Source: Anaerolineales bacterium
GTDB lineage: Bacteria; Chloroflexota; Anaerolineae; Anaerolineales; Villigracilaceae
Direction: 5' to 3'
Length of the DNA: 7,737 bases
Assembly (NCBI GenBank): GCA_016928525.1
Contig: JAFGKO010000400.1
Location: forward strand, 1 to 7,737
In this document: piece after piece, positions 215-7,737 of the stretch
How the letters are laid out: each line of letters opens with the position of its first letter
Numbering within the stretch: position 1 is the stretch's first letter
The notes under the pieces: generated by a model
Database searches by the model: none
What the model was told of the DNA's origin: nothing
Seen by the model: the letters and a program-made list of their open reading frames with translations, nothing else
Program-made: the position numbers and the translations under genes

Positions 215-373
215 TCACGAATCACTGTTTTCCCTTCTCGGTTCACAATGCAGGTAAAGCCCCCCGATACTGAGTGCCTGGTTACTCATTACACCCGTTA
301 ATAAAGGTCTTATCCAAAAACATTGACTCTTAACATCGAGCGTGCTATTATCAATAATATCTTTATTTTTCAT
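215..373 (-). CDS. Doubtful small ORF, 53 residues
   Basis: An ATG at 373-371 is preceded by GGAGA (385-381) at about 8 nt, and the frame runs 53 codons to TGA at 217-215. The product has no recognisable motif. It has a moderately hydrophobic middle (FWIRPLLTGV) and a polar, charged end. A longer version starting at 427 lacks a ribosome-binding site. The ribosome site is the only positive sign. The ORF runs antisense through the strong + strand promoter at 323-351, and the local sequence is AT-rich and looks intergenic. It is more likely spurious than real. Confidence 0.18.
   Translation of the reverse strand: MKNKDIIDNSTLDVKSQCFWIRPLLTGVMSNQALSIGGLYLHCEPRRENSDS
323..351 (+). promoter_or_regulatory. 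Strong sigma-70-type promoter
   Basis: TTGACT (323-328, 5 of 6 to the -35 consensus) is followed by exactly 17 nt and then TATTAT (346-351, 5 of 6 to the -10 consensus). TGC directly before the -10 gives an extended -10 element. A start point near 358 is expected. No ribosome-binding site and ORF pair follows before the terminator at 510-535, so the product is either a short untranslated RNA or the leader of the PIN/TRAM gene at 577. TATTAT-CA-ATAATA (346-359) is also a perfect inverted repeat over the -10 and start region, and could be an operator. Confidence 0.6.
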
Positions 374-535
374 TTTTTTGTCTCCATGCCTCGCCTGGAC
401 ACTATCGTAGAACTCTGAAGCAATCATCTGAATTATTCTTCATCAATAGTTCTGACTCTTCGCATAGTAGAGATTACTACATCGTCTACCCATTAATACA
501 CTAAGGCGAGCGCAGATAATCTGCGCTTTTGTTTT
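358..535 (+). ncRNA. Candidate structured small RNA or attenuator leader
   Basis: This stretch lies between a near-consensus promoter (323-351) and an intrinsic terminator (510-535) and contains no credible ORF. The only ATG frame near its start gives a 10-residue peptide without a ribosome-binding site. Several helices can be seen by eye. CTCGCCT (390-396) pairs perfectly with AGGCGAG (504-510), closing a domain of about 120 nt. Inside it AGAACT (409-414) pairs with AGTTCT (448-453), and TGAAG (416-420) with CTTCA (438-442). TAGTA (465-469) pairs with TACTA (475-479) around GAGAT. The terminator stem follows at once. It does not match the conserved cores of SRP RNA, tmRNA or a T-box. It may be a free RNA of about 175 nt or a regulatory leader for the gene at 577. 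No folding energy was computed. Confidence 0.4.
510..535 (+). terminator. Intrinsic terminator upstream of the PIN/TRAM gene
   Basis: GCGCAGA (510-516) and TCTGCGC (520-526) form a perfect 7-bp stem with a TAA loop, followed by TTTTGTTTT (527-535). The opposite strand has no T run after the stem, so it acts on rightward transcripts. The left-edge gene already has its own terminator at 79-109, so this one must serve a transcript that starts in between, most simply from the promoter at 323-351. It could end a free RNA or act as an attenuator 42 nt ahead of the PIN/TRAM start codon. Confidence 0.75.
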
Positions 536-576: not shown

Positions 577-1632
577 ATGAGTATTGAATTCATTTCCCGA
601 ATCATCGGCATGATCGTTTTGGGGATTGGCGGCGTGTACCTGGGCGCCAGCCTCAGCGACCTCGCTGGGGCATCAGCGGAATTATGGGCCTCGGTGTTCG
701 GCCTGGTTGGTGTGCTTGCCGGTCTGATCCTCAGTCCCTACCTCTCCGTGCGCCCGATCAAAGCGATTCGTGCTTCGCTGGGCCAGGCCTCGGCGCGCTC
801 GCTCGTGGCCGGGATCACCGGCCTGGTGGTAGCACTGATCATTTCTGTGCTGCTCTCCTTCCCACTCTCGTTACTGCCCCAGCCTTTCAGCCAGATCTTA
901 CCGATCCTGGTTGCCCTGATTTTGTGTTATCTGGGCGTGGTTGTATTTGTATCCCGGCAGAATGACCTGTTTGCCGTCATTAACATGTTTCCCGGTCGTA
1001 GCAGTACAGCAGAAGACAGCAAGAACAGTAACGAAGGCCGCACCATCCTGATGGATACCAGCGTGATCATCGACGGGCGCATCGCCGACATCGCCCGCAC
1101 TGGCTTCCTTTCCGGGACGCTGCTGATCCCGCGTTTTGTGCTCAACGAACTGCAATACATCGCCGACTCTGGCGACAACCTGCGCCGCCAGCGCGGCCGC
1201 CGCGGCCTGGAAGTTTTAGCCCAACTGCAAAAAGACCCCGTTATCCCGGTACGGATCAGCGACATTGACGTTGAAGGTTCCAATGCTGTCGACGATAAGC
1301 TGATCATCCTCGCCCGCCAGCTCCGCGCCCCCGTGCTGACCAACGATTTCAACATGAACCGCGTGGCCGAATTGCAAGGCGTGGCGATCCTGAACATCAA
1401 CGAACTGGCAAACGCGGTCAAGACCGTGTACCTGCCGGGAGAGAACATGAACGTACGCATCATCCAGGAAGGTCGTGAGGCCGGGCAGGGTGTCGGCTAT
1501 CTGGACGACGGCACAATGGTGGTTGTGCAGGACGGCAGCGATTACCTCGGCATAGAGGTGACCACCACAGTCACCAAGGTGCTGCAAACCGCGGCCGGGC
1601 GCATGATCTTCGCCCGTCCGGAGGAAGAGTAA
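577..1632 (+). CDS. Membrane-anchored PIN/TRAM domain protein (YacL family)
   Basis: This is a 351-residue protein of the YacL type: an integral membrane N-terminus followed by a PIN nuclease-like domain and a C-terminal TRAM RNA-binding domain. Four hydrophobic helices are visible at about residues 5-25, 35-55, 74-100 and 104-126. The PIN domain spans about 156-280 and keeps the acidic metal-binding set: D160 and D166 in LMDTSVIIDGR, E191 in LNELQ, D239/D240 in AVDDKLI and D257 in LTNDFNMN. The TRAM domain covers about 285-345. Family members are presumed metal-dependent RNases or RNA-binding proteins, but the substrate is unknown. The ATG at 577 is chosen because AGGAG (562-566) lies 10 nt upstream; a TTG at 529 is in frame but falls inside the terminator tail. 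The gene precedes cysS and rlmB, as yacL does in the Bacillus cluster. The SD may be partly masked by a small hairpin (CCTG 549-552 with CAGG 561-564). Confidence 0.9.
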   Translation: MSIEFISRIIGMIVLGIGGVYLGASLSDLAGASAELWASVFGLVGVLAGLILSPYLSVRPIKAIRASLGQASARSLVAGITGLVVALIISVLLSFPLSLLPQPFSQILPILVALILCYLGVVVFVSRQNDLFAVINMFPGRSSTAEDSKNSNEGRTILMDTSVIIDGRIADIARTGFLSGTLLIPRFVLNELQYIADSGDNLRRQRGRRGLEVLAQLQKDPVIPVRISDIDVEGSNAVDDKLIILARQLRAPVLTNDFNMNRVAELQGVAILNINELANAVKTVYLPGENMNVRIIQEGREAGQGVGYLDDGTMVVVQDGSDYLGIEVTTTVTKVLQTAAGRMIFARPEEE

Positions 1633-1792: not shown

Positions 1793-3193
1793 ATGAGTTT
1801 ACGGGTTTACAACACACTCACGCGTCAAAAAGAACCATTCGAGACACTTGAACCAGGTAAAGTGCGTATGTATGTCTGCGGCCCTACCGTCTATGACAAA
1901 GCCCACGTTGGACACGCCATGTCCAGCCTGGTGTTCGATATTATTCGCCGCTACCTGGAATTCAAAGGCTATAAGGTCCATCACGTAATGAACTACACCG
2001 ACGTGGACGATAAGATCATCGACCGGGCCAACTTCGAAGAACGCGACCCGGTCGAACTGGCCGAGTTCTACATCGACGAATATGACCGCCACATCGGCGA
2101 ACTCAACATCCGCCCGGCCACCGATTTCCCGCGCGCCACCCAGGAGATCGACTACATCATTGAAATGGTGAAAGGTCTGATCGAGAAGGGCTACGCTTAT
2201 CCTGCTGATGGCGACGTGTACTTCCGCGTGACCAAAGACGACGATTACGGCAAGCTCTCCCGCCGCAAGTTGGAAGACATGCAAATCGGGGCGCGCGTCG
2301 GCGTAGACGAGCGCAAAGAAAACCCGCTCGACTTCGCGGTGTGGAAAGGCGTCAAACCCGGCGAACCTTGCTGGGACAGCCCGTGGGGGCCGGGACGCCC
2401 CGGCTGGCACATCGAGTGCTCGGCGATGAGCCTGCACCACCTTGGCGAGCAGATCGACATTCACGGCGGCGGCACCGACCTGGTCTTCCCACATCATGAG
2501 AACGAGATCGCCCAGAGTGAAAGCCTGACCGGCAAGCAATTCGCCCGCTACTGGATGCACAACGGCATGCTGCAATTCGACGGTGAGAAGATGTCCAAGT
2601 CCTTGGGCAACCTGATCACGATCGACGATTTCCTGGAAGATTACGAAGCCGATGTACTGCGCATGGCTGTGTTGAACGGCAACTACCGCCAGCCACTGAC
2701 CTTCAACGACGCCGTACTGGAACAATCCAAGAAGGCTGTTGAGCGCCTGCGCTCTGCTCTGCGGCCCGCTTTCCCCGAATCGGAGGGTGCCGATAAAGAC
2801 GCGCTGACACAGTTGAACACACAAGTCGAAACCACCCACCAGGGTTTCATTGAAGCCATGGATGATGATTTCAACTCGGCCGGCGCGTTGGGCCAAATCT
2901 TCGACCTGGTGCGCGTGGTCAACCATGCCCGCGACGCCGGAGCAAACGACGAGCAATTGCAACCCGCTCAAAAAACGATCACCGACCTGACCGGTATCCT
3001 GGGCCTGCAACTGGAAAAAGCCGAAACTACCGGGGCCGAAGCCGCGCCATTCATCGACCTGCTGGTCGAGGTGCGTTTGGAACTGCGCAAGGAAAAGCTG
3101 TGGGCACTTTCGGATAAAATCCGCGACCAGTTGGCGGAGCTGGGTGTGCTCCTGGAAGACAGCAAAGAAGGCACCCTCTGGCGCTGGGAATAA
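1793..3193 (+). CDS. cysS: Cysteine--tRNA ligase
   Basis: A complete class Ia cysteinyl-tRNA synthetase of 466 residues, the usual length. It activates cysteine with ATP and charges tRNA-Cys in the cytoplasm. The HIGH-type signature is HVGH at 38-41 within [13 protein letters not shown], and the second signature is KMSKS at 266-270. The catalytic zinc site is intact: C29 in YVCGPTVY, C209 in HIECSAM, and H234 and E238 in FPHHENE. These sit at or within one residue of the E. coli ligand positions. The DALR/anticodon-binding helical region follows from about 290. The C-terminus ends with the typical [27 protein letters not shown] segment. The start is ATG 1793 with GGAG (1781-1784) 8 nt upstream. 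The 160-bp gap from the PIN/TRAM gene is packed with hairpins, so expression may be controlled at the RNA level. rlmB follows after 69 bp. Confidence 0.97.
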
Positions 3194-3210: not shown

Positions 3211-3254
3211 GGCTGTCCCAAAAGTAAAATCTAACTTTTAGGACAGCCTTTTTT
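3211..3254 (+). terminator. Terminator-like hairpin between cysS and rlmB
   Basis: GGCTGTCC (3211-3218) pairs with GGACAGCC (3241-3248). After one C/A mismatch the helix continues as AAAAGT (3220-3225) with ACTTTT (3234-3239) around an 8-nt loop. TTTTTT (3249-3254) follows, making a textbook intrinsic terminator for cysS. The 3' end of the U tract is only 8 nt before the rlmB ATG (3263), leaving no room for a normal ribosome-binding site. The arm GGCTGTCCCAAAAGT also resembles the terminal inverted repeats of some insertion sequences, so it could be a remnant or a minimal palindromic element (inference). Confidence 0.75.
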
Positions 3255-3262
3255 AATTGCTT

Positions 3263-4015
3263 ATGGCTGAATGGATCTATGGCCGCAATCCGGTCTATGA
3301 AGTATTGACCGCCGCAAGGCGCGATGTGTTCGAACTGCGCCTGGCGCAGGGCACCGAAAAGAAAGGTCGCATTGCCGATATTCAAAAGCTGTGCCAGGAA
3401 AAGAAAATCCCGGTCAAGTTCGTGCCGCGCCAGGACCTGGACAATATGCTCAGTGATGCACCGGGCAGCAGCCACCAGGGGTTGGCTTTGCGGGCCAGTG
3501 AATACCCCTACAGCGACCTGGACGAGATGCTCTACCGGGCCGAAGAACGGGAGGAACCACCCTTCTTGCTGCTCTTGGATACGCTGCAAGACCCGCACAA
3601 CCTGGGCACGCTGCTGCGCACCGCCGAGGCGGTGGGTGTACACGGCGTGGTGATGCCTCTGCGGCGCACGGCCACGGTTACTCCGGCGGTGGTCAACGCC
3701 TCGTCGGGGGCCAGCGAACATTTGCTGGTCACGCAGGCCAACCTGGCCCAGGCCATCAAGAATTTGAAGGATAACGACGTGTGGGTGATCGGCCTGGACG
3801 GCGGCCGCGATTCCCAGCCGCCCGACCGTGTGCGCCTGGACGGGGCGATTGCGCTGGTGGTCGGCAACGAGGGCGAGGGCATGCGCCGCCTGGTGCGCGA
3901 GTCCTGCGACCTGCTGCTGCGCCTGCCGATGCGCGGCCGGATCGAATCGCTCAACGCTGCCGCGGCCGGGACGGTGGCGCTGTATCTGGCCTGGGGGGCA
4001 AGGGGATACGATTAG
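3263..4015 (+). CDS. rlmB: 23S rRNA 2'-O-methyltransferase RlmB (TrmH/SpoU family)
   Basis: A 250-residue SPOUT-class RNA methyltransferase of normal length. RlmB uses S-adenosylmethionine to methylate the 2'-OH of a guanosine in the peptidyl-transferase region of 23S rRNA (G2251 in E. coli). Residues 3-78 form the small N-terminal substrate-binding domain, starting IYGRNPVYEVL. The knotted SPOUT domain starts near 98 and shows the three TrmH motifs: LDTLQDPHNLGTLLRTAEAVG (106-126, N113 and R119), VVGNEGEGM (199-207) and LPMRGRIESLNAAAAGTVALY (221-241). Related tRNA or rRNA methyltransferases share these motifs, but the N-terminal domain and the cysS neighbour favour RlmB. ATG 3263 is used; TTG 3257 is in frame but has no better support. 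No ribosome-binding site adjoins the start, and AAGGAG (3202-3207) lies before the hairpin. The last four codons and the stop lie inside a 48-nt repeat that recurs at 6442. Confidence 0.93.
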   Translation: MAEWIYGRNPVYEVLTAARRDVFELRLAQGTEKKGRIADIQKLCQEKKIPVKFVPRQDLDNMLSDAPGSSHQGLALRASEYPYSDLDEMLYRAEEREEPPFLLLLDTLQDPHNLGTLLRTAEAVGVHGVVMPLRRTATVTPAVVNASSGASEHLLVTQANLAQAIKNLKDNDVWVIGLDGGRDSQPPDRVRLDGAIALVVGNEGEGMRRLVRESCDLLLRLPMRGRIESLNAAAAGTVALYLAWGARGYD

Positions 4016-4049
4016 TTTCGGCAGTTTAGTGGTTGGGTAGTTGGATAGT
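4002..4049 (+). repeat. 48-nt direct repeat, copy 1 (spans the rlmB stop)
   Basis: Bases 4002-4049 match 6442-6489 at 46 of 48 positions; the differences are at 4019 (C/A) and 4022 (C/T). The copy starts GGGGATACGATTAG, which encodes the last residues and stop codon of rlmB, and continues into a run of TAGT/GG-rich units downstream. The TAGT-type units carry on in degenerate form to about 4065. Confidence 0.9.
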
Positions 4050-4103
4050 TTGGTAGTCGGTTAGTCGCAGATTCTTTTTTGGCCGGGATTTGTTGCAGGC
4101 AGA

Positions 4104-4164: not shown

Positions 4165-4323
4165 ACAATCCAGGACAACATCTTCCAGGGAGCCTGAGAT
4201 GAAGAAATCACCTATAAAATTTATTCTGATTCTATTTGTGCTGGTGCTATCGGGCTGTGCTGCCCAGCAAAAAGTGCGGTAACGGCGCCAACCAACACAC
4301 AACCCCCAACCTTCACAGCAACC

Positions 4324-5991
4324 ATGCCGTCTGCAACGCTTTCATCCAAAAAAGCTTACCTGCCGACTTATCAGGCCAAGATGACCCAAAGATATCTCGA
4401 GCAAGCTACGCCCACTGCCGTAAACTGGACACCAACGCCAACGTCTCCTTCAGCGGATCTGTTCCACAACGTTGAGGTCGCTCCCGAAATGGCCTGGGGG
4501 CAGGCGGATGGTTCGCTCTTGTTGTTGGATTATTCAACCAGTGAGGATATTTTGCTGGATTTGACCACTGGGGCGAAAACACCCATTGACCCAATTGAAC
4601 CATTGGACTACTGCGCGTATGTTTCCCCAAACCGTTCGCGAATTGCCTGCTCTGCAGGGACAGGCGCATCCGCTAAGTTAGTGATTCTAGACCATCAGGG
4701 AAAGATCATCAAAACGTATCCCTGGAAAGACAATTGGTATTTCCTGGATGGCTGGTTGAACGATGGTCAAGTCATACTGACAGCTAATCCACCCGCTGAT
4801 TATGAGCCCTACCAAAACTTGCCCACCACGCTCTTCAACATTGGGGGTGGAAACGAAACCGTTCTACTACCCGATTATCCCGAGATCAATAATTTAGAAC
4901 CCTTCAATCAGCAGGGGCCACTTGCTGCGACGGCAACCAGCTACAGCCCGAACTTGAAGCTCGCTGTCTATGAAGCGTTCGGCGAGGGAGGAAAAGATTT
5001 AGTTTTGTGGGATCGGCAGAACAACACAGAAGCTGCCCGAGTTCAACAAGCAGATACAGCACCCTACCCGCAATGGAATCCAGCCGGAGACCAGGTTGTT
5101 GTAGCTGGGAGATCAGAAACCAGATATACGGATTTATTTATCCTTTCAAAATCCGGTGGAGCACAGCAGGTTACAGATCTCCGAGAAATAATTTTCCACC
5201 CAACGAGCATCTACACCCTGGGTTGGTCGCCTGATGGGAAGCGCATCGCCTTTGAACTTACATCGGATGGTCGGAAATGTGATCAACACTGTATCGGGAT
5301 TTTTGATGTGGATTCGGGAGAAGTTGAAATCTTTAATTTCTCCGAATATCGCATTGGTTTTTCCCTCGCACCGAATTATGCTTTGACCTGGTCTCCAGAC
5401 AGCCGCTATTTGTTGCTGCCCCTGATTTCGATTGAGACTGACGAAGAACCGACCGTTGTCTTCGATGTCGAGCAAGGGCTGGCCTACCAGGTAGCCACAA
5501 ACGCGCGGATTGAGGGCTGGCTGGCTCGCCGCCACGATCTTGGTCATTCGGCGACACCCACTCAAACGCCAGTTTCAACTGGTGAAGTCATGCCGCTAAG
5601 TGGTGATGGGATCGTTAAAGTAACCGATGGGGCCTATAGTTATTTCCTGGGGAGCCTGAACCCGGAACAAACCGAGATGATCGCATTTGCACATGACGGT
5701 TCTCATTGGCGGCTTGTGCGCATCGATCCTGATCAAGGAAGCTTTATTGAATTCATTCCCCATTTCGATGCAGACTCTCAAAATCCACAGGTATCACCGG
5801 ATGGGAAATATATTCTGGTTGCTTCAAACGGCACTGGTGATTTTGATATTTATATAATGGATTACCATAGAGAAGAATTCATCAAGTATGTAACTTCAAA
5901 TAGTTCGAGTGATATTTCTCCGGATTGGTTTCCAGATGGTAATCGGCTTGTATATATTCACAATGACGGTGATTGGGAAATATATATATAA
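4324..5991 (+). CDS. Main open fragment of the PD40 lipoprotein
   Basis: The longest uninterrupted part of the broken lipoprotein gene, 555 codons from ATG 4324, which is probably not a true start. No ribosome-binding site precedes it, and the frame stays open upstream to the A5 slippage point with a Thr/Pro-rich spacer typical of the region just after a lipoprotein cysteine. It contains the whole N-terminal propeller of about seven blades, the Thr/Pro linker, and the first three blades of the C-terminal propeller. It ends prematurely at TAA 5989-5991 within DWEIYI, in the middle of a blade. Confidence 0.65.
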   Translation: MPSATLSSKKAYLPTYQAKMTQRYLEQATPTAVNWTPTPTSPSADLFHNVEVAPEMAWGQADGSLLLLDYSTSEDILLDLTTGAKTPIDPIEPLDYCAYVSPNRSRIACSAGTGASAKLVILDHQGKIIKTYPWKDNWYFLDGWLNDGQVILTANPPADYEPYQNLPTTLFNIGGGNETVLLPDYPEINNLEPFNQQGPLAATATSYSPNLKLAVYEAFGEGGKDLVLWDRQNNTEAARVQQADTAPYPQWNPAGDQVVVAGRSETRYTDLFILSKSGGAQQVTDLREIIFHPTSIYTLGWSPDGKRIAFELTSDGRKCDQHCIGIFDVDSGEVEIFNFSEYRIGFSLAPNYALTWSPDSRYLLLPLISIETDEEPTVVFDVEQGLAYQVATNARIEGWLARRHDLGHSATPTQTPVSTGEVMPLSGDGIVKVTDGAYSYFLGSLNPEQTEMIAFAHDGSHWRLVRIDPDQGSFIEFIPHFDADSQNPQVSPDGKYILVASNGTGDFDIYIMDYHREEFIKYVTSNSSSDISPDWFPDGNRLVYIHNDGDWEIYI

Positions 5992-6407
5992 GCTCTTTGG
6001 AAGAACGAGATATTATGCGGTTAACCTCTAATACTTCTGAGGAATATAGTCCGCATGTATCACCCGATGGAGACTATGTCGTCTATTATTCATCCAGAGA
6101 GAATAATGTGGATATCTACGTTTACGCTATGGAAGATGGCACGGAAGCACGCATCACGACAGATGCAGCCCGCGATGCAGAGGGAACTTTTTCGCGAGAC
6201 GGTGAGTGGATCGTATTTGAAAGCAACCGGAATGGGAATTATGATCTCTGGGCCGTGCGGACAGACGGGAGTGACTTGCAGCAAATCACATCGGATAGCG
6301 CCGATGAGCAAGTCCCCTACTTTTCCCGTGACGGAGAGTGGCTGTTTTATCAGTGCGCTGAGGATGGTGGCAATTATGATATCTATCGAATGCCTTGGAA
6401 AAAGTAA
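5973..6407 (+). CDS. C-terminal fragment of the PD40 lipoprotein
   Basis: This frame carries the last blades of the C-terminal propeller. The repeated motifs are SPDGDYVVYYS...DIYVYAM, SRDGEWIVFES...YDLWAVRTDG and SRDGEWLFYQC...YDIYRM, ending in PWKK. It overlaps the end of the preceding fragment by 19 nt across the (TA)5 run. A TTG at 5973 and an ATG at 6015 are the only nearby starts and neither has a convincing ribosome-binding site, so it is best read as the tail of the gene above, not as a separate gene. Confidence 0.6.
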   Translation: MGNIYISSLEERDIMRLTSNTSEEYSPHVSPDGDYVVYYSSRENNVDIYVYAMEDGTEARITTDAARDAEGTFSRDGEWIVFESNRNGNYDLWAVRTDGSDLQQITSDSADEQVPYFSRDGEWLFYQCAEDGGNYDIYRMPWKK

Positions 6408-6441
6408 TGTGAACAAAGTGAACTGCACAGGATGGTGGTGC

Positions 6442-6489
6442 GGGGATACGATTAGTTTAGGTAGTTTAGTGGTTGGGTAGTTGGATAGT
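6442..6489 (+). repeat. 48-nt direct repeat, copy 2
   Basis: The second copy of the 4002-4049 repeat, in the same orientation and 2440 bp away, with 46 of 48 bases identical. It repeats the rlmB tail sequence GGGGATACGATTAG although no rlmB-like coding sequence precedes it here. Degenerate TAGT-containing units (GAGTAGTC, CTAGTCG, TTAGTCAG, GGTTAGC) continue to about 6528. The sequence just before it (GGATGGTGGTGC) has only a loose resemblance to the rlmB side. Confidence 0.9.
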
Positions 6490-6656
6490 CGAGTAGTCTT
6501 CTAGTCGTTAGTCAGATGGTCGGTTAGCATGTACACTCAATAATCCTTATTTCCCTCTGCGACTCCATGCCTCTGCGGTAAAAAGGGAAAACTGAAGTTG
6601 CCGCGGTTTTAACTACCCCCTACTGATTATCGGATTATGAAAAGCGTGTTGGTGAC
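6490..6656. other. Convergent intergenic region with low-complexity repeats
   Basis: This is the space between the + strand lipoprotein gene and the minus-strand zinc-ribbon gene. It starts with the decaying tail of the TAGT repeat. TTTCCCT (6550-6556) and AGGGAAA (6584-6590) are an inverted repeat around a 27-nt loop that holds two copies of CTCTGCG (6555-6561 and 6571-6577). No T run follows the stem on either strand at the right distance, so a terminator is not proven for either gene. Confidence 0.4.
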
Positions 6657-7069: not shown

Positions 7070-7737
7070 CTAGCAAATGCGCGGCAGCATCTCGCCCATC
7101 AACACGTCGACGACGCGGTGGCTGCCGATCAGCGTCTTCATCAAAACGCGGCCTTGCGGCTCTTCGGTGACCTCGCCGACGATGACGGCGGCGCGCCCGT
7201 AGCGGTTGGCATGCATCACATCTAACACTTTGTCAGCGTCCTCTTTGGCAACGATCAAGATCAGCTTACCCTCGTTGGCAATGTAGAGCGGGTCGAAACC
7301 AAGCATCTCACAGGCCGACTGCACCGCCGGGGTGACGGGGATGGTGGTCTCGTCCAGCACGATGCCGACCTGGGACTGTACGGCAATCTCGTTCAGCGTG
7401 GTCGCCACCCCGCCGCGCGTCGGATCGCGCAGCACGTGCACATTCTCGCTGACCGCCAGCACTTCGGCGATCAGATGATTGAGCGGGGCCACGTCACTCT
7501 GGATATCACTTTCGAAACCCAGTTCACCGCGCGCCCCTAAGACCGCAATGCCGTGGTCACCGACCGTCCCGGACAGGATCACCACGTCGCCGGGTTGGGC
7601 CTGAGCGCCGTCGATCTGCCGCCCCTCTGGGATCGTGCCCACACCCGCGGTGCTGATGTACAACCCATCGGCATTACCCCTTTGCACGACCTTGGTATCT
7701 CCGGCCACGATCTGCACGCCGGCTTCTTCGGCCGCGG
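7070..7737 (-). CDS. hypE: Carbamoyl dehydratase HypE (hydrogenase maturation), C-terminal part
   Basis: The frame is open to the right edge, and 221 residues are visible before TAG at 7072-7070, about two thirds of a normal HypE. HypE takes a carbamoyl group from HypF onto its C-terminal cysteine and dehydrates it with ATP to a thiocyanate. This provides the cyanide ligands for the Fe of NiFe hydrogenases through HypC-HypD. The hallmark C-terminus LPRIC is present with the catalytic Cys as the last residue. Other visible landmarks are AGDTKVV near the edge, VILSGTVGDHGIAV, RDPTRGGVATTLNEIA and PLYIANEGKLI, all typical of the PurM/AIR-synthase-like ATPase fold. The GTG at 7717 is an internal valine, not the start; the true start lies beyond 7737. 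The gene predicts a NiFe hydrogenase elsewhere in the genome, and other hyp genes probably lie to the right. Confidence 0.95.
   Translation of the reverse strand, partial: AAEEAGVQIVAGDTKVVQRGNADGLYISTAGVGTIPEGRQIDGAQAQPGDVVILSGTVGDHGIAVLGARGELGFESDIQSDVAPLNHLIAEVLAVSENVHVLRDPTRGGVATTLNEIAVQSQVGIVLDETTIPVTPAVQSACEMLGFDPLYIANEGKLILIVAKEDADKVLDVMHANRYGRAAVIVGEVTEEPQGRVLMKTLIGSHRVVDVLMGEMLPRIC

Follow-up and report, generated by a model that had tools for sequence, protein, structure and literature searches.

Positions 323–535 of the window (the whole analysed stretch of 7,737 nt from an Anaerolineales bacterium, contig JAFGKO010000400.1) hold a promoter and a terminator directly upstream of a gene encoding a protein with PIN and TRAM domains. 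An earlier note, made from the sequence alone, left two explanations for this unit side by side: a free small RNA, or an attenuator of the PIN/TRAM gene. Whose promoter is it, and what might the RNA between promoter and terminator do?

The transcription unit and the operon that follows it

The promoter (323–351, plus strand), identified by a sequence scan, comprises the -35 hexamer TTGACT, a 17-nt spacer and the extended -10 element TGCTATTAT, in which TG precedes TATTAT; with 10 of 12 matches it agrees with the earlier description. The same holds for the intrinsic terminator (508–535, plus strand), composed of a stem (508–516/520–528) with a 3-nt loop (517–519) and a U-tract (527–535), the stem being followed by TTTTGTTTT, which ends at 535. 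Within positions 1–2500 of the window, 5 promoter-like sites were found vs 2.0 expected, and 4 terminator-like sites vs 1.9 expected. The putative leader RNA (358–535, plus strand) would start at a position predicted from the -10 element and end at the U-tract; its predicted fold exceeds chance only slightly (z -2.0, with 8 of 200 shuffles equally good). As in an attenuator, the terminator is located between the promoter and the PIN/TRAM start codon at 577, with 225 nt from the end of the promoter to the gene and 41 nt from the end of the U-tract to the start codon.

The previous observation that the unit lacks a credible ORF held for the plus strand of the window leader, where a 10-codon ATG frame (386–418) is not preceded by a Shine-Dalgarno sequence. 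Among the 26 leaders examined, no Shine-Dalgarno-preceded short frame is common to them and none is present in the window, and leader-peptide attenuation was rejected for want of such a conserved frame. The ORF list of the window also contains a minus-strand frame of 70 codons (215–427). As to the terminator that the earlier note had assigned to an upstream gene at 79–109, a hairpin is present at 86–102, but no upstream gene is recognisable in the window.

The PIN/TRAM gene (577–1632, plus strand; Pfam PIN and TRAM) is preceded by the Shine-Dalgarno sequence AGGAG (562–566) and is the first gene of an operon with cysS (1793–3193; TIGR00435) and rlmB (3263–4015; TIGR00186), both on the plus strand. 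Its product, which we take to be YacL-like, has its closest relatives (70–76% identity) in Chloroflexi/Anaerolineales. Between cysS and rlmB, at 3211–3256, an inverted repeat GGCTGTCCC...GGACAGCC with a T run resembles a terminator; presumably it could also be the end of an insertion sequence. In ten relatives (L011, L014, L016, L017, L021, L024, L029, L066, L068 and L074) rlmB directly follows the PIN/TRAM gene and cysS was not found between them.

Rfam searches with the window (E≤5), 13 relatives (gathering score), 7 relatives (E≤3) and 20 upstream pieces (E≤1) left the sense strand of the leader unmatched, returning tRNAs and weak matches that lie elsewhere or fall below the gathering scores, so that the statement that no known RNA is recognisable here was confirmed as far as Rfam is concerned. 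Two candidates were rejected individually: a T-box, for which there was no Rfam match and which is at odds with terminator leaders at loci where rlmB follows without cysS, and 6S RNA, whose Rfam models gave no match. A Cys-tRNA signal is unlikely, because terminator leaders occur where rlmB, not cysS, is the next gene (L011, L021, L024, L048, L074). Literature searches, in which subscription papers were little covered, yielded nothing on this leader, also in the accessible text of a survey that describes 104 candidate RNAs (PMC2864571), and a functional study of a bacterial PIN/TRAM protein was not found by these searches. The leader is a candidate member of a cis-regulatory RNA family that Rfam does not list, situated before an operon of PIN/TRAM and rlmB.

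The promoter in relatives

Upstream regions of PIN/TRAM genes were collected (172, of which 137 distinct ones were kept) from 80 loci retained out of 299 relatives, from the family- and order-level loci, and from further genomes, for which 60 pieces out of a longer list were used. A strong promoter (score 12 or more) is present in 103 of the 137 regions. A terminator-like hairpin precedes the start codon in 42 of them, the window included, and 31 of the 137 have the strong promoter as well; the scan for promoter and hairpin had no shuffle control and misses some hairpins, e.g. that of L120. In 72 regions the promoter occurs without a hairpin, and 56 of these have leaders of only 36–136 nt. Since these 56 short leaders show no terminator by the scan, the promoter belongs to the PIN/TRAM gene, which in the short-leader relatives is driven directly by the same kind of promoter.

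Comparison of the L108 leader with 24 genomes gave 5 strong matches, each immediately before a PIN/TRAM gene, and further short, weak matches elsewhere (best E 0.002, about 25 nt), which we take to be due to chance. The window leader, compared as DNA with the same number of genomes, gave one weak match (E 0.004), at the P1/terminator region of G006 (the helix P1 is described below). The short-leader promoters, together with the finding of strong L108 matches only before PIN/TRAM genes, favour a cis-acting leader. Of the two earlier options, the attenuator or leader is therefore the one supported, while no positive evidence was obtained for a separate trans-acting RNA.

That the unit instead encodes an independent small RNA, about 175 nt long and acting in trans, either 6S-like or antisense, with the PIN/TRAM gene served by another promoter, is improbable in our view. 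The RNA would have its own promoter and terminator, paired ends and about the length of 6S RNA, and a weak promoter-like match (9/12) at 493–520, which counts against the cis-acting reading, could in principle initiate RNA behind the terminator. However, the arrangement was found before PIN/TRAM genes only, the short-leader species have the gene directly behind the promoter, and, unlike 6S RNA, the leader is tied to one gene, its terminal helix runs into a terminator and no Rfam family, 6S included, matches it. Even as an attenuator the unit would yield a terminated transcript of about 175 nt.

Helix P1 and the terminator

The ends of the leader were previously noted to pair, and this is correct: CUCGCCU at 390–396 is the exact complement of AGGCGAG at 504–510 (both on the plus strand). 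The last three bases of the 3' strand of this long-range helix, P1, double as the base of the terminator stem, and hence P1 and the terminator overlap by three bases (508–510).

Three tests were applied to P1 in relatives. In the first, the best duplex was computed between the 5' part of a leader and either its own or a swapped terminator shoulder, for 24 author-chosen leaders of the 42 terminator loci. The leaders' own partners gave -20.4 kcal/mol vs -16.4 ± 0.62 for swapped ones, a difference reached in none of 20,000 permutations. In the second, with the shoulder cut ahead of the shared triplet, the values for the same 24 leaders were -11.2 vs -9.8 ± 0.43 (P 0.001). By the rank of their cut-shoulder duplex, the window stands at 11/24, L053 at 19/24 and L006 at 24/24.

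In the third test the register was fixed by sequence and not by pairing, using as anchors the first NCTC of the 5' region and the GAG-like triplet of the terminator. This was applicable to 23 distinct rows from the 42 loci; of the 19 others, which were excluded, 13 had no terminator arm of this kind, 3 lacked NCTC and 3 were duplicates. Three rows whose anchor is clearly misplaced (L001, L053 and L107) were kept in. Columns 0–2 (CUC/GAG) belong to the anchors, are invariant for that reason and carry no evidence. In columns 3–8, standard pairs occupy 90 of 138 cells vs 63.8 ± 4.6 after permutation, a value never attained in 20,000 permutations, which do not remove kinship among the leaders. Sliding the register by 1–3 columns reduced the paired fraction from 65% to 32–42%. 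The identity of the pairs varies: column 5 has C-G in 8 rows, U-G in 5, G-C in 4 and A-U in 1, and column 6 has C-G in 5, U-A in 4, G-C in 3, and G-U and U-G in 1 each. RNAalifold, run on MAFFT alignments A1 (17 sequences) and A2 (10 sequences), did not return P1 but 3 and 4 pairs, respectively, all in the terminator region; the diverged P1 strands are out of register in these alignments. Taken as a comparison of sequences, these data support P1 by covariation across relatives.

Of the compensatory changes that the earlier note had demanded of its helices, those in P1 were thus seen across relatives, but none were seen for the two inner hairpins, which are not supported. The arms of the latter exist in the window (409–414/448–453 and 465–469/475–479), but the minimum-energy fold pairs them otherwise, and no counterparts were seen in A1, which is poorly alignable in that region. 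In six other leaders (L101, L108–L110, L113 and L114), GCUGUUUC, close to the start of the RNA, could pair with its complement GAAACAGC located after the inner box; alongside P1, such pairing would create a pseudoknot or else add a third alternative structure.

How do P1 and the terminator relate energetically? In the window the free fold has -35.5 kcal/mol, the fold with the full terminator -34.3, and that with P1 and a 6-bp remnant of the terminator -32.9. With positions 508–510 common to both, P1 takes away three base pairs at the foot of the terminator stem, of which six remain, and in the folding model the exclusion would be partial, a 6-bp terminator persisting with P1 formed. For the window alone the model assigns P1 a probability of about 0.06, and the fold with P1 lies 2.6 kcal/mol above the free fold, and the default of the window leader in the folding model would be termination. 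The free folds of L021, L024, L051 and L074, by contrast, hold P1 at the expense of the terminator, and the balance between the two therefore varies between species. A P1-like helix also closes the leader in folds of four long-leader relatives, L005, L007, L012 and L033, where the scan found no terminator; L007 and L012 adopt different folds when more upstream sequence, part of it untranscribed, is included. Support for P1 as a conserved helix alternative to the terminator, which it overlaps, thus comes from the relatives, and in the window taken by itself it is weak.

A constitutive, partial terminator that only fixes how strongly the operon is expressed, with no regulation, finds some support, as the window terminator is favoured without P1 and the distance and form of the hairpin differ among relatives, but it would leave unexpected both the covarying P1 over the terminator and the enriched box described below, and we consider it unlikely. 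Attenuators and 'on' riboswitches have a long-range helix whose 3' strand enters the 5' arm of a terminator, with the gene just downstream. The window leader resembles them in its promoter, in P1 running into the terminator arm and in the adjoining gene; it differs in that neither a known aptamer nor a T-box nor a leader peptide was recognised, in the lack of any Rfam match and in the overlap of only about three bases. A metabolite riboswitch, with P1 closing an aptamer and a ligand stabilising P1 so that termination is prevented, would suit this layout and the covariation of P1. Yet a conserved junction or a long core was not found inside P1, which holds a short AU-rich box only, the leaders at this one gene have several sizes and two terminator architectures, and no Rfam riboswitch matched, which leaves this idea with a small probability.

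Judged on sequence evidence, positions 323–535 probably comprise a promoter and a cis-acting attenuator leader of the PIN/TRAM-cysS-rlmB operon, in which P1 and the terminator compete. Transcription would start near 358, and the leader RNA would form either P1 (390–396 with 504–510), with the box at 420–427 in its enclosed loop, or the full terminator (508–528). Formation of the latter would release an RNA of about 175 nt, while stabilisation of P1 would weaken termination and let more polymerases into the genes; the assignment of P1 to the 'on' state is inferred from its overlap with the terminator.

The GCAMUYAU box, its possible reader and other control devices

The box GCAMUYAU (GCAAUCAU, 420–427, plus strand) lies inside P1 in the window and could be the site at which a regulator acts. 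It was chosen after inspection of the same leaders, and the counts, which ignore kinship, are 28/41 in terminator-type leaders (shuffled mean 1.16), 14/37 in other long leaders (1.14), 12/27 in leaders with boxA (0.42) and 3/32 in other short leaders (0.16). A second AU-rich element (AAUUAUUC, 431–438, plus strand) may also have a role; UUAUU exceeds expectation more than threefold in every leader class. The combination of the promoter with the box at a distance of 10–40 nt gave 9 matches in 24 genomes, all just upstream of PIN/TRAM genes, and so did the combination at 55–85 nt (again 9, in the same 24 genomes); the reversed pattern, used as a control, gave 0. Among 151 genomes of the order, the pattern at 10–40 nt had 7 matches, again just before PIN/TRAM genes and all in genomes already represented among the 9 matches at that spacing; the remaining genomes had none, their PIN/TRAM loci included. 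So strict a pattern fits only a minority of PIN/TRAM leaders and would overlook targets that have a different promoter or spacing; the search of 151 genomes shows specificity and not spread.

Could the regulator be the PIN/TRAM protein itself? We offer this as a tentative possibility, held with less than even confidence. In its favour, the promoter-box arrangement turned up at no gene other than PIN/TRAM, and the PIN and TRAM domains of the protein are of RNA type. RNase E provides a parallel, as it autoregulates via its own 5' UTR; the likeness lies in a structured, AU-rich leader that precedes a gene of nuclease type and was found nowhere else, and the difference is that the window leader has an intrinsic terminator. 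TRAM proteins have been described as RNA chaperones and antiterminators, and according to the accessible part of that report (PMC5572242) the archaeal ones antiterminate in an E. coli reporter, which adds to the attraction. These proteins share the TRAM domain with the PIN/TRAM protein but, as far as described there, are small, lack a PIN domain and bind RNA without sequence specificity (PMC5572242); the last property speaks against autoregulation. In any case, the leader offers, through the box, a direct route to PIN/TRAM function.

Some relatives have other devices at the same gene. In a second type of terminator leader (L120, L127, L141, L143, L154, L162, L165, L166 and L173), GCCCGGUUUC is found upstream of the terminator, the loop and 3' arm of which read GAAACCGGG(C/U). 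Of 18 leaders, one was too short and 17 were compared. Runs of 8 or more consecutive paired positions occur in 12 of these, among them L158 and L168 with changes on both sides, and a run of 7 in L080; L129, L133, L148 and L180 do not fit; the permutation test for this architecture gave P 0.34.

In short leaders of L014, L017, L023, L025, L039, L041, L044 and others, a boxA-like TGCACCTTAACA occurs 25–78 nt before the PIN/TRAM start; with a consensus built from the PIN/TRAM leaders themselves, 11 or 12 of 12 matches were found in 18 of 81 upstream regions. In rRNA leaders of six genomes, (C/T)TTAACA precedes the 16S gene in 7/7 cases by eye, of which the pattern flagged 2, and as the same type of box stands before 16S, the element is read as boxA. 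Other Anaerolineae thus have an rRNA-type boxA at the position held by the terminator in the window, an alternation at one gene that would be a useful case of exchange of control devices in evolution. From the presence of boxA in these relatives and in the group's rRNA leaders one might suppose that a Nus/boxA antitermination complex also controls the window leader, but the best boxA match there is 8/12, equalled or exceeded in 98 of 100 shuffles, and among the 42 terminator loci only L107 reaches at least 10/12, making such control highly improbable. Outside rRNA genes, suhB is a known case in which boxA mediates translational repression (PMC5725501, accessible text); the relatives' boxA near the Shine-Dalgarno sequence of the PIN/TRAM gene is reminiscent of it, whereas the window leader carries a terminator and no boxA.

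A more far-reaching and rather doubtful extension of autoregulation is that the box is the target of the downstream PIN/TRAM nuclease, controlling its own operon with the ribosome-modifying gene rlmB across Anaerolineae, with output devices specific to each lineage: P1/terminator in the clade of the window, the second terminator CCCGGUUUC/GAAACCGGG, boxA, or a site near the Shine-Dalgarno sequence. If true, the PIN/TRAM family would acquire an RNA target and a link to ribosome production.

The part of the window downstream of the operon has features of its own. A PD40-repeat gene, following a lipoprotein-like start, extends over 4201–6407 in three frames (4201–4280, 4324–5991 and 5973–6407), which indicates either a broken gene or a sequencing error. 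A repeat GGGGATACGATTAGTTT...TTTAGTGGTTGGGTAGTTGGATAGT is present in two copies, at about 4002–4070 and 6436–6520, and the C-terminal part of HypE (TIGR02124) is encoded on the minus strand at 7070–7735, where it is cut by the end of the window.
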